This document shows, one piece after another, positions 60,647-64,000 of a stretch of DNA of 64,000 bases; the first letter of the stretch is position 1; every line of letters begins with the position of its first letter. The stretch is from the NCBI GenBank assembly GCA_020723345.1, contig DYJA01000002.1:207602-271601 (forward strand). The letters run 5' to 3'. The translations under genes and the position numbers were made by a program. The notes under the pieces were generated by a model, which worked only from the letters and a program-made list of their open reading frames with translations, had not been told where the DNA came from and did no database searches. Source of the stretch: Candidatus Aquidulcis sp. (GTDB taxonomy: Bacteria; Chloroflexota; Anaerolineae; UBA4142).

Positions 60647-60724
60647 GTCGTTTCGAGCAAAGCGAGAAATCTCGCCGTCGCCTCATTGAGATTTCTCGAC
60701 GCAAAAACCGCGCCTCGAAATGAC
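60647..60724. repeat. Palindromic repeat with GTCxTTTCGA ends
   Basis: GTCGTTTCGA at one end and TCGAAATGAC at the other, with inner GAGAAATCTCG / GAGATTTCTCG arms. Related to 39318-39344. Confidence 0.65.
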
Positions 60725-60747: not shown

Positions 60748-60781
60748 GAAACTGCCCACCAAACACTTGGCAGGCAGTTTC
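60748..60781 (-). terminator. Terminator of the tmRNA transcript
   Basis: GAAACTGCC / GGCAGTTTC stem with inner CCA / TGG pairs, four bases after the mature CCA end on the minus strand, followed by TTTTGTGG. Confidence 0.75.
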
Positions 60782-60807
60782 AGATTGGTGGAGATGGCGG
60801 GAATCGA

Positions 60808-61471
60808 CACGCAGCCCTCGGTTTTTCAACCGAGCGTTGACTATCTCTTCGAGTGGATGTATCATCTTCACATTCACTCGCCCGGCGTTTTGTAAGGAGG
60901 AATGCCCATAAGACTCAGCGACACAGAGGCTGCCTATGCCGCAGGCATTTTGGACGGAGAAGGATCCGTCGTGCTTACCCGTTGTCGGAAAGACCGCTGG
61001 CCTTCGCCTGTTGTTTCGGTCACATCAACCGATCGCGAGTTACTCGAATGGTTTCGTTCTCGTTGCGGTGGAACAATCATTCGCAAACGCACCTACCAGC
61101 CACATCACTCCGCCTCATTCGATTGGAAGTTGACTGATCGGCGAGCACTGGAATTCCTTAAGATTGTCCGACCGTTTCTCGTCATCCGTAGAAAGATCTC
61201 CCGTTGCGATTTGCTTCTTGCGGATTACTTGGTTTGCACTCCACGCAATGGTCGCTACAACGCAGAGATGTCAAGCAGAAAACGAAAACTCGTCGAGCGA
61301 TTTTCCTCCTTACCCTAGTGCTCCATTTGAGGAGTCTATGAGTCGATGCAGGGCTTACCTCTTTCGAGTTCACCCCTCAGGATTAGCATCGGCGCCTTGC
61401 CGGAAGCCTTTCCTGATTAAGCCGGGTTTGCATTGAGCGTCACCGTTCAATGGGGCTCGTCTTTGCAGAGA
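60808..61471 (-). other. Group I intron in the tmRNA T-loop
   Basis: 664 nt. P1: exon GGGU and intron UC pair with GAGCCC (61458-61453), with a U.G pair exactly at the 5' splice site. P2: CAUUGA / UCAAUG. P4: UCAGGA / UCCUGA, in the context UCAGGAAAGGC ... UAAUCCUGAG, close to the P and Q elements of tRNA-type (IC3-like) introns. P3: GGCUU / AAGCC. P7: GACU (61344-61341) / AGUC in GAUAGUC (60845-60839). P9: CUCGGUU / AACCGAG. The intron ends in G (60808). A 3-pair P10 (UCG with CGA) is possible. The P8 region carries the endonuclease gene on the opposite strand. Confidence 0.9.
60902..61318 (+). CDS. LAGLIDADG homing endonuclease, antisense within the tmRNA intron
   Basis: 138 residues, single-motif type, so it should act as a homodimer. 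The LAGLIDADG helix is AAYAAGILDGEGSV with Glu20 in the catalytic acidic position. The rest follows the family pattern (VVSVTSTDRELLEWF; DWKLTDRRALEFLKIVRPFL; EMSSRKRKLVERF). Such enzymes cut intron-free alleles to drive intron homing. The gene runs opposite to tmRNA and fills the P8 region. AAGGAGG (60894-60900) lies only one base from ATG 60902 but seven from an in-frame ATA at 60908, so the true start is uncertain. Confidence 0.88.
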   Translation: MPIRLSDTEAAYAAGILDGEGSVVLTRCRKDRWPSPVVSVTSTDRELLEWFRSRCGGTIIRKRTYQPHHSASFDWKLTDRRALEFLKIVRPFLVIRRKISRCDLLLADYLVCTPRNGRYNAEMSSRKRKLVERFSSLP

Positions 61472-61721
61472 ACCCGCGTCCGAAAAGTTCGCCCCAGAGT
61501 TACTACAAGCGTAGTCGGTTTTTGTTGCTCACGCGACCGGACTCAGCCGACAAAGTTGATCGCGCCAGCCGTGTTGGGTGTTACCCCGCTTTGACAGTCG
61601 TTACCGGCGTGGCGACCGCCGCACCCCGACTTGGTTTCGCCCAGCGCGCATCCTTCGGGGGAGAACGCGCGTAGACGTCGCAACGCTAGGTTGCGAACCA
61701 GGTCGCTAATTCAGCCGACGC

Positions 61722-61766
61722 TTACGCGGCAACTGGAAGAGCGGCGAGGTTGGTGCGAGTGTTCGC
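61722..61766 (-). other. tmRNA tag-peptide reading frame
   Basis: Resume codon GCG at 61766-61764, then AAC ACT CGC ACC AAC ..., ending GCC GCG TAA. Encoded tag: ANTRTNLAALPVAA, with a hydrophobic -VAA end expected of ClpXP degrons. It resembles tags of other Chloroflexota, as far as I recall. Confidence 0.85.
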
Positions 61767-61871
61767 ACTTACGTTTTGCTCGTTTTAACGCGGTCGAGCG
61801 CCGCGGCTTGCAACTCTGAAACAGCCCTCCCCGTCGAAGCCATGCATCCCCAAACCATTTTGGATTTTCGA

Positions 61872-61891
61872 TCCTTCGACTGCGCTCAGGA
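61872..61891. repeat. CCTTCGACTCCGCTCAGG-family repeat in the tmRNA leader
   Basis: TCCTTCGACTGCGCTCAGGA lies between the tmRNA promoter and the mature 5' end, so it is transcribed and removed during maturation. Confidence 0.65.
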
Positions 61892-61929: not shown

Positions 61930-61958
61930 ATTATACCACGCGCGAAGCGCGGAGGCAA
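61930..61958 (-). promoter_or_regulatory. Putative tmRNA promoter
   Basis: On the minus strand TTGCCT (61958-61953), 17-base spacer, TATAAT (61935-61930). It predicts a ~70-nt leader before the mature tmRNA end and starts just after the smpB stop. Confidence 0.6.
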
Positions 61959-61966
61959 ATCGAAAA

Positions 61967-62428
61967 TTATCTGTTGCGCGTCTTGACCGCGCGTTCCATC
62001 TCGCGCGCGGCATCGCGCTTGCTGATTGCTTCGCGCTTGTCGTACTGCCGCTTGCCGCGCGCCAAACCGATTTCCAGTTTGGCGCGATTCTTTTTCAGGT
62101 ACATCCGCAAGGGAACGAGCGTGAATCCTTTTTCCTGAACGCGTCCGAACAACCGTAAAATTTCCTTGCGGTGCATCAGCAGTTTGCGGTCGCGGTACGG
62201 ATCGACGTTCTGCCGACTTGCCGGTTCGTACGGCGCGATGTGGACGTTCAGCAGCCACAACTCGCCGTTCTTCACTTGCGCGTACGAATCGCGCAGATTG
62301 ACGCTGCCCGCGCGCACCGATTTGATTTCGGTACCCGTGAGCGCAACACCGGTCTCGTACGTTTCTTCGATGTGATAATCGTGGTACGCTTTGCGATTGG
62401 TTGCGAGAGTTTTGGTAGAATCTGCCAT
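61967..62428 (-). CDS. smpB: SsrA-binding protein SmpB
   Basis: 153 residues, the usual size. It binds tmRNA and brings it to stalled ribosomes. Motifs: NRKAYHDYHIEETYETGVALTGTEIKSVRAG, LLNVHIAPYEPAS, RDRKLLMHRKEI, LVPLRMYLKKNRAKLEIGLARGKRQYDKRE. The basic C-terminal tail is present. It lies directly upstream of the tmRNA gene on the same strand. Confidence 0.97.
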   Translation of the reverse strand: MADSTKTLATNRKAYHDYHIEETYETGVALTGTEIKSVRAGSVNLRDSYAQVKNGELWLLNVHIAPYEPASRQNVDPYRDRKLLMHRKEILRLFGRVQEKGFTLVPLRMYLKKNRAKLEIGLARGKRQYDKREAISKRDAAREMERAVKTRNR

Positions 62429-62442
62429 CTTAAGTTACACAA

Positions 62443-62518
62443 GACCGCCGACCACCGACAGCCAACCGTGCCCGCCACTACAAGATGTACGGCGGTCTGC
62501 GGTCAGCCGTCGGTGGTC
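62443..62518. repeat. Word-repeat hairpin between ctpA and smpB
   Basis: GACCGCCGACCACCGAC faces GTCGGTGGTC and GGCGGTC; imperfect long stem overlapping the protease stop. Confidence 0.6.
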
Positions 62519-63719
62519 ATTTTCCGGTTTGCAAAAACTTGACCGCCGCGTCCAGTTGCGGGTCGCGCTTGTTCGCGGTGTCCTCTTCCGTCAGCTTGAC
62601 TTCGATATCCGGCGCGACGCTCACACCGTTGATCTCGTTGCCCAACGGACTGAAAAAGCGCGCGATGGTGACGCGCAGTTCCGATTTGTCGCTCAAGGTG
62701 TGGACGTTTTGCACCGATCCTTTGCCGTACGTTTTCACGCCGATCAACGTCGCGCGTTTGTGATCTTGCAACGCCGCCGCCACGATTTCCGACGCGCTCG
62801 CCGAACCGCCATCAATCAGCAGTACCAGCGGAATGTTCGTCGCCAAGCCGCCATTTTTTGACTTGAGTTCCTGCACGACGCCATTCTTGTCCTTTTCGAT
62901 CAGGACAATCTGGTCGCCTTTGAGAAATTGGCTCACGACATCGACTGCCACGCCGAGGTAGCCCCCCGGATCGCGCCGCACATCGAAAATCAAGCCGGTC
63001 GGATTCTGCGCCAGCAATTCGCGGAGCGCGGCGCGCATTTCGTCCGGCGCGGTCGCGCCAAATTGATTCAGCCGTAAGTACGCGATGGTCGTCCCTTCGA
63101 GCATGCGCGACTCGACGAACGGCGTGCGAATCACGTCGCGCACAACCGTTACTTTGAAGGGCGCTTGCGTCCCGCGCTGAATCCGCAGCGTCACCTCGGT
63201 CCCTTTCGGTCCGCGCACCAGCGCAATCGCCTGCGAGACGTCCATGTTTTGGATCAGCGTATCGTTCACTTGCAAGATAATGTCGTTCGGCAGCAAACCG
63301 GCTTTTTCGGCAGGCGATCCTTTGATCGGCGAGACGATGGTGAAACGCCCCTCGCGCATTTCGACGGTCGCGCCAATCCCTTCGAACGATCCTTCCAGCG
63401 TAGTCCGCGAGATCGCCGCGCGCTTGGCATCGGTGAACGCGGTGTGCGGATCGCCGAGCGCGCGCACCATTCCGGCGACTGAACCATCGACTAGCGCGTC
63501 AGGGTCGAGCGGCGCTTTGTAGAAATCTTGCTGAACATAGCGCCACGCCTCCCATAAAACCGGCATGTACGGTTTCCATTCTGCCGGAGCCCCGCCATCC
63601 GGCGGTAGGGGAGGGGGAAACATTGAGCGACTGGCGACAAACCCGCCGCCGTACGCGCTGGCGACCAGCACGGCGACGAATAACATCACCAGCGCGATGC
63701 GAATTATTCCACGAACCAC
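62517..63719 (-). CDS. ctpA: Carboxy-terminal processing protease (S41), CtpA-like
   Basis: 400 residues. A signal/anchor helix (IIRIALVMLFVAVLVASAYGG) precedes a PDZ domain (~100-190, GIGATVEM...GLLPNDIILQVNDTL) and the S41 catalytic core with Ser in GGSASASEIVAAAL and the general-base Lys in TYGKGSVQ. It degrades or trims exported proteins. A second S41 gene ends five bases upstream, so this is a tandem pair. Confidence 0.95.
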   Translation of the reverse strand: MVRGIIRIALVMLFVAVLVASAYGGGFVASRSMFPPPLPPDGGAPAEWKPYMPVLWEAWRYVQQDFYKAPLDPDALVDGSVAGMVRALGDPHTAFTDAKRAAISRTTLEGSFEGIGATVEMREGRFTIVSPIKGSPAEKAGLLPNDIILQVNDTLIQNMDVSQAIALVRGPKGTEVTLRIQRGTQAPFKVTVVRDVIRTPFVESRMLEGTTIAYLRLNQFGATAPDEMRAALRELLAQNPTGLIFDVRRDPGGYLGVAVDVVSQFLKGDQIVLIEKDKNGVVQELKSKNGGLATNIPLVLLIDGGSASASEIVAAALQDHKRATLIGVKTYGKGSVQNVHTLSDKSELRVTIARFFSPLGNEINGVSVAPDIEVKLTEEDTANKRDPQLDAAVKFLQTGK

Positions 63720-63724
63720 GTTTG

Positions 63725-64000
63725 CTATTTGCCTTTCTGCAAAAACTTGACCGCCGCGTCGAGTTGTGGATCGAATTTTTTCGCGATGTCGTCCTCGGTC
63801 ACTTTGACTTCGATATCCGGCGTGATCCCCACTTCGTTGATTCCGTTTCCATTGGGGCTGAAGAAATGCGCGATCGTCACGTTCAATTCCGATTTGTCGC
63901 TGAGGGTGTGAACGCCTTGCACTGAACCCTTGCCAAAGGTCTTGGTGCCGATCAACGTCGCGCGTTTGTGATCCTTCAACGCAGCGGCGACGATTTCGGA
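63725..64000 (-). CDS. S41 protease, C-terminal part (runs off the window)
   Basis: Only the last ~91 residues are inside the window: SEIVAAALKDHKRATLIGTKTFGKGSVQGVHTLSDKSEL in outline, containing the catalytic Lys in TFGKGSVQ. It is closely similar to the C-terminus of the downstream gene, indicating tandem duplication. The start lies beyond position 64000. Confidence 0.85.
   Translation of the reverse strand, partial: SEIVAAALKDHKRATLIGTKTFGKGSVQGVHTLSDKSELNVTIAHFFSPNGNGINEVGITPDIEVKVTEDDIAKKFDPQLDAAVKFLQKGK

Follow-up and report, generated by a model that had tools for sequence, protein, structure and literature searches.

The tmRNA gene of this genome lies on the minus strand of the 64,000-nucleotide stretch of DNA analyzed here (the window), with its 5′ end at 61851 and its CCA end at 60786, and is divided into two exons by an intron. 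Exon 1 (61472..61851, minus strand, 380 nt) runs from the 5′ strand of the acceptor stem to the first T-loop base, a U at 61472 (position −1), and contains the tag frame ANTRTNLAALPVAA* at 61766-61722 on the same strand. It was identified by the tmRNA model RF00023, which matches 61844-61464 with 100.6 bits (gathering score 47) and E=4e-38, and its extent follows from ARAGORN on the joined exons and from the coordinates. Exon 2 (60786..60807, minus strand, 22 nt), assigned from the sequence and from ARAGORN on the joined exons, supplies the remaining T-loop, the 3′ strands of the T-stem and acceptor stem, and the CCA. The two acceptor strands read GGGGAUG/CAUCUCC, and the T-arm is split into GCGGGU (to 61472) and UCGAUUCCCGC (from 60807) on the minus strand.

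When the exons were joined in silico by removing 60808-61471, ARAGORN accepted the resulting 402-nt RNA as a tmRNA with a resume site; the acceptor stem, the T-arm, and the tag ANTRTNLAALPVAA were all restored. The same tag occurs in two intronless relatives within the family. An initial sequence-only reading of the locus had placed the tmRNA ends, acceptor stem, tag frame, and T-arm halves and had predicted that excision of this segment would restore the T-arm; all of these elements are present, and the prediction was borne out. ARAGORN called no tmRNA in the unjoined window because the gene is split. A whole-genome search found no other tmRNA gene in the 95.5%-complete genome, and the intact second ssrA gene that could have spoken against the sequence-only reading did not appear. 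The seven strongest of the weaker matches overlap or adjoin ARAGORN tRNA genes and were rejected as second ssrA candidates.

The gene for SmpB, the partner protein of tmRNA, is located directly upstream (smpB, 61970..62428, minus strand; PF01668, E=2.6e-62). Roughly 80 bp ahead of the tmRNA 5′ end, a consensus scan identified a site of the form TTGCCT-17 nt-TATAAT (61930..61958, minus strand) with 10/12 consensus matches; the region contains only one other such site. It is promoter-like, which alone is no proof of function. Past the tmRNA gene, a hairpin with a 15-pair stem and a T run (60748..60781, minus strand) resembles a terminator. A 20-base repeat, TCCTGAGCGNAGTCGAAGGA, with 44 exact copies in the genome, lies between smpB and the tmRNA gene at 61872-61891, and a sequence that resembles an intergenic repeat (CGAGATTTCTCGCTTYGCTCGAAA, 60651-60674) is found between the tmRNA gene and a PIG-L family gene. 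At 62517-64000, the window contains two tandem, similar C-terminal-type proteases (PDZ and S41 peptidase), the second of which runs off the window.

A group I intron in the T-loop

The segment that separates the exons is a group I intron of 664 nt (60808..61471, minus strand). It interrupts the T-loop after the first loop base (GCGGGT|TCGATTCCCGC), that is, at T-loop position 2, in a host from Anaerolineae, and it ends in a G at 60808. For comparison, a set of 20 introns was assembled, comprising the window intron, the intron of locus L045 (genome G019), and 18 from Anaerolineae or Chloroflexi assemblies; all loci compared are metagenome assemblies. The boundaries are conserved throughout: 20/20 introns start after GCGGGT and end in G, and the exon resumes with TC[GA]A[TA]TCCCGC.

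Covariance models, which the sequence-only reading had named as a check, gave a clear result for the tmRNA (RF00023, above) and a divided one for the intron. The group I model RF00028 matches the window intron, which contains a homing-endonuclease gene (HEG) described below, at E=9e-6, but the score of 30.9 bits lies below the gathering score of 50, as expected from the insert of about 400 nt in the core. The HEG-less sister intron in L045 reaches 54.6 bits and passes the gathering score of 50. No second group I intron was found in the genome by a weak search, which missed the window intron too, probably through its HEG insert.

The fold was examined in a core alignment of the 20 introns, in which P1, P3, P4, P6, and P7 are 100% paired (all intron coordinates are on the minus strand). 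P1 (61453..61475) joins exon GGGU and intron UC to GAGCCC, with a U.G wobble at the splice site in 20/20 introns. The P2 hairpin (61432..61451) shows changes on both sides in 7/7 pairs, and P3, formed by CCCGGC (61421..61426) and GCCGGG (60886-60881), shows such changes in 4/6. P4 (UCAGG/CCUGA), within the P4/P5 domain (61377..61416), and P6, within P6/P6a (61350..61377), are invariant. The guanosine-binding helix P7 is likewise invariant in the 20 introns, with the 5′ strand GACUCAU at 61338..61344 and the 3′ strand AUAGUC at 60844-60839. The P7.1 hairpin (61321..61334) is 99% paired, with both-side changes in 3/4 pairs. P7.2, formed by UAAGGAGG (61305..61312) and CCUCCUUA (60900-60893), is 96% paired, with both-side changes in 4/8 pairs; it closes the loop that holds the HEG, and in L045, which lacks the HEG, this stem is capped by a short loop instead. 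Both-side changes were also found in 8/10 pairs of the P8 hairpin (60851..60879) and in 6/7 pairs of the P9 hairpin (60817..60834). Manually drawn helices P5a and P6a were a poor fit (58% and 62%) and were dropped.

The element in the window is thus a real group I intron, and the T-loop location, boundaries, stems, splice-site U.G, and terminal G that the sequence-only reading had recognized recur across the set. The group I fold suggests that the intron is active in splicing. Alternatively, splicing might have been lost and the tmRNA gene might be dead, the cell living without trans-translation or on another rescue system. We consider this extremely improbable: the exons, tag, and acceptor stem are intact, as is the adjacent smpB; pairing in P1, P3, and P7 is complete, and several stems show compensatory changes; and the arrangement persists in 20 introns across several families.

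An antisense LAGLIDADG gene within the intron

The main additional feature of the intron, which the sequence-only reading had overlooked, is a gene of 138 codons' worth of protein (138 aa; 60902..61318, plus strand) that runs antisense to both the intron and the tmRNA and occupies almost two-thirds of the intron. The Pfam family PF14528 (LAGLIDADG_3) matches the window protein at E=5e-4, with 20.6 bits against a gathering score of 22.5, and matches 10/10 aligned members of the family (best E=8.5e-8). A profile search matched I-MsoI and I-CreI. The AlphaFold model (pLDDT 93.5) has I-MsoI at rank 1 in Foldseek (E=4e-7) and I-CvuI at rank 4 (TM 0.75). Both the LAGLIDADG fold and the motif, here AYAAGILDGEG, are present. 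D18 and E20, the acidic residues of the motif, do not vary among the ten proteins of the first alignment, and the protein of G013 has D instead of E; this conservation fits DNA cleavage. Together, these matches suggest that the protein is a LAGLIDADG homing endonuclease of the I-CreI/I-MsoI type, for which cleavage is predicted. A search for phage or plasmid carriers of the HEG returned distant phage relatives only (LAGLIDADG genes with 25–42% identity) and no plasmid match.

Differences between HEGs are distributed over codon positions 1/2/3 as 2794/2192/6193, and the median dN/dS is about 0.11 (16 pairs with dS < 2), values that indicate purifying selection. These numbers bear on the idea that the antisense frame is no gene at all and results as a by-product when selection acts on the ribozyme strand. 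In about 1.5% of shuffled introns, an open frame of 140 codons does arise (31/2000, one strand only). Against this stand the third codon positions, which differ about 2.2–2.8 times as often as the first and second, the low dN/dS, the profile and fold matches to I-CreI and I-MsoI, and the intron of L045, which shows that the ribozyme core does not need the HEG segment. The protein-family match and the codon pattern refute the by-product idea in practice, and its probability is close to nil. On the sense strand of the intron, the longest frame has 72 codons and contains no gene.

The orientation of the HEG is uniform: in 19/19 HEG-bearing loci (the window and 18 from Anaerolineae), it is antisense to the tmRNA and lies in the P7.2 loop. 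The reading frame is frameshifted in L089, and the HEG of L088 is apparently disturbed near the LAGLIDADG motif; both look like copies in decay or misassemblies.

A maturase role is generally known for some LAGLIDADG proteins and is restated in PMC3073962. The protein might therefore, in addition or instead, bind the intron RNA and aid splicing, so that the antisense gene would be kept for splicing and not for spread. Its conservation, intact motif, and low dN/dS would agree with such a role. Yet genome G019 retains the intron without the HEG and the HEG of L089 is frameshifted, which means that splicing cannot strictly need the HEG in cis. A HEG-less intron is, moreover, a prediction of the homing cycle, and the near-invariance of D18 and E20 fits DNA cleavage. 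Maturase function is accordingly an unlikely explanation for the gene.

Sequence elements shared by ribozyme and HEG

Several putative expression signals of the HEG coincide with parts of the ribozyme. The Shine-Dalgarno sequence of the HEG, TAAGGAGG (60893..60900, plus strand), is complementary to the 3′ strand of P7.2. A Shine-Dalgarno-like P7.2 arm is present in all 19 HEG loci, and in 18/19 a start codon follows a few bases downstream. In the window, the conserved start place is occupied by ATA, and the nearest ATG lies 1 base after AGGAGG; this copy might therefore be weakly translated. At the other end of the gene, the stop codon, read in 13 loci, is TAG and falls in the ribozyme core segment CUAGGGU.

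A consensus scan further revealed a promoter-like site for the HEG (TTGACT, 17 nt, TATCAT; 60837..60865, plus strand; 10/12), one of two such sites in the region. Its TTGACT is complementary to the 3′ strand of P7, and its TATCAT lies within P8. In 8/20 introns, mostly from one clade, a good −10 hexamer lies 17 nt from the TTGACT/CTGACT that P7 provides, and the site is not conserved in the other 12/20; for this reason, we regard the HEG promoter as suggestive only.

Distribution and horizontal spread

The intron-end pattern was matched in 11/396 genomes of the class, 10 of them with the HEG and one without. Several states occur within one genus: G016 and G017 carry intron and HEG, G019 carries the intron only, and G015 and G018 have intact intronless tmRNA genes. 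In G014, which belongs to the genus of G016, G017, and G019, the intron pattern is absent and no tmRNA was called by ARAGORN. The HEG-less version in G019 (L045, about 786-1069 of the locus) is 283 nt long.

Sequence identities do not follow the relatedness of the hosts. The window HEG shares 79% identity with that of G040 and 77% with that of G102 (other family), compared with 79% and 82% with genus mates, whereas SmpB identity is 90–93% with genus mates and 58–61% with G040 and G102. In the SmpB tree, host families f1 and f2 group together (86/93) with f23 outside; in the HEG DNA tree, f1 is joined with f23 (100/99), and grouping by host order is rejected (AU p=0.008). The ribozyme-core tree likewise rejects it (AU p=0.0125). 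With the shorter HEG protein alignment, grouping by host order was not rejected at 0.05 (AU p=0.07), and for host family f1 alone the AU test gave no rejection (p=0.07 for protein, 0.34 for DNA). All introns (20/20) are found in a GCGGG/CCCGC T-stem, which is also present in 27/39 matched intronless T-arms of relatives. The conflict of the intron and HEG trees with the hosts, together with the coexistence of empty, HEG-less, and frameshifted copies, characterizes the element as a mobile intron that appears to be in mid homing cycle, and the trees indicate that intron and HEG have spread horizontally.

This distribution also bears on the proposal of the sequence-only reading that splicing gates ribosome rescue. 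The proposal holds in a trivial sense: an unspliced tmRNA lacks the T-arm and, by the known rules of tRNA identity and the structure of tmRNA, could not be charged normally. As a regulatory switch, the intron is less convincing. It occurs sporadically in the class and is missing from close family members, no sensor domain was seen, its sequence and trees resemble those of a mobile element, and the antisense LAGLIDADG gene speaks for a selfish mobile element, not for a rescue-gating device. A switch is therefore very unlikely. Overall, the observation made in the sequence-only reading is confirmed, and its interpretation is partly supported.

A model for splicing and homing on opposite strands

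The explanation that we favor, with a probability of roughly 90%, is that a mobile group I intron with an antisense HEG interrupts the tmRNA gene of this genome at T-loop position 2. At the RNA level, the intron would fold through P1–P9 and excise itself with an external guanosine; excision would restore the T-arm and thereby allow maturation and charging of the tmRNA. As a DNA element, the intron would spread by homing. The LAGLIDADG endonuclease would be made from a transcript of the opposite strand; since tmRNA is not translated like an ordinary message, the HEG needs a transcript of its own. The enzyme would act as a homodimer that binds and cuts the near-palindromic T-arm (GCGGGTTCGATTCCCGC) of a tmRNA gene lacking the intron, and repair of the cut gene would copy the intron in. 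The T-arm is a natural inverted repeat and would thus suit a homodimeric enzyme, and the antisense placement of the HEG would keep translation off the folding ribozyme. Splicing in vivo, the HEG promoter and its expression, and the cleavage site are steps that we infer. For homing by cleavage of the intronless allele, the tree conflict and the coexistence of empty, full, decayed, and HEG-less states provide indirect signs.

A more far-reaching reading is that this bacterial mobile intron separates splicing from homing by strand, with the P7.2 arm doubling as Shine-Dalgarno sequence, the P7 strand as −35 box, and a core segment as stop codon, and that HEG expression opposes tmRNA production. 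We put this forward tentatively, as an idea that is rather less likely to be right than wrong. If it is true, the HEG would be transcribed antisense to the tmRNA precursor, and endonuclease expression and tmRNA production would be set against each other.

Relation to known introns and endonucleases

Since tmRNA is near-universal in bacteria, an intron in its gene must splice well. For a HEG within such an intron, expression is a difficulty, since tmRNA does not serve as an ordinary message. One answer would be a HEG that is conserved on the antisense strand, so far described in the searchable literature for eukaryotic rDNA introns.

The intron itself belongs to a published group. The statement of the sequence-only reading that just a few bacteria are known to have T-loop introns has been overtaken: a 2025 study counts 883 unique intron-form tmRNA genes across 21 phyla, with four T-loop subsites (PMC11915505). 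According to the same study, position 2 introns are all from Anaerolineae with one exception, and the window intron resembles them in gene, subsite (loop bases 1/2), host class, a U at −1 that pairs with G in P1, 3′ G, and a size of <700 nt. HEGs are reported there in 36/883 intron-form genes, 19 of the first 23 being in the P7.1 region, and some of these introns resemble the present one in carrying LAGLIDADG HEGs in that region. The main text of that study is silent on HEG orientation, strand conflict, a shared Shine-Dalgarno sequence and stem, and transfer; the window copy may be in its supplement. No report of an antisense HEG in a bacterial intron was found in open-access text, and the antisense HEG is apparently an undescribed variant feature of the group. 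The tmRNA gene in L080 (genome G017), with its intron, is about 1130 nt long, which exceeds the 1116 bp given in PMC11915505 for the second-longest known.

HEGs on the antisense strand have precedents in nuclear rDNA introns of eukaryotes (PMC9548176, PMC3073962, PMC2585584). In Didymium Dir.S956-2/I-DirII, Dsq.L2066/I-DsqI, and Porphyra S1506, the HEG likewise lies opposite a structural RNA and a ribozyme in a peripheral stem, and for some nuclear rDNA cases in vivo expression from the antisense strand has been documented (PMC9548176, PMC3073962). Those cases are eukaryotic, with His-Cys enzymes in P9 or P1 extensions, whereas the window combines a bacterial tmRNA intron, a predicted LAGLIDADG enzyme in P7.2, and a bacterial Shine-Dalgarno sequence within the stem. 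The window protein resembles I-CreI, I-MsoI, and I-CvuI in size, single motif, predicted fold, and the expected homodimeric action at a near-palindromic target within a structural RNA gene; it differs in its identity of only about 20%, in its target gene, and in its orientation antisense to the host intron, and its cleavage activity is a prediction. The phage LAGLIDADG genes are sequence relatives at a distance.

The Anaerolineae set, in which empty, full, decayed, and HEG-less states coexist, several of them within one genus, offers a natural series for a bacterial homing cycle. ARAGORN missed every HEG-bearing intron gene on which it was run here, so that tmRNA can be wrongly taken to be absent from genomes of this kind.

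Finally, group I introns at T-loop position 7 of tmRNA genes are found in Bacillota and others (Williams 2002, cited in PMC11915505); they share with the window intron the type and the location in the T-loop but differ in the insertion subsite. Within the class of the host, locus L069 (genome G192, about 1105-2300) has a tmRNA gene with an intron that by inspection fits position 7 and has no HEG inside. A free-standing, sense-oriented HEG relative (40% identity) lies downstream, between two copies of the tmRNA 3′ end (GCCGCCTCCACCAATT), and looks like a separate insertion at the ssrA end.
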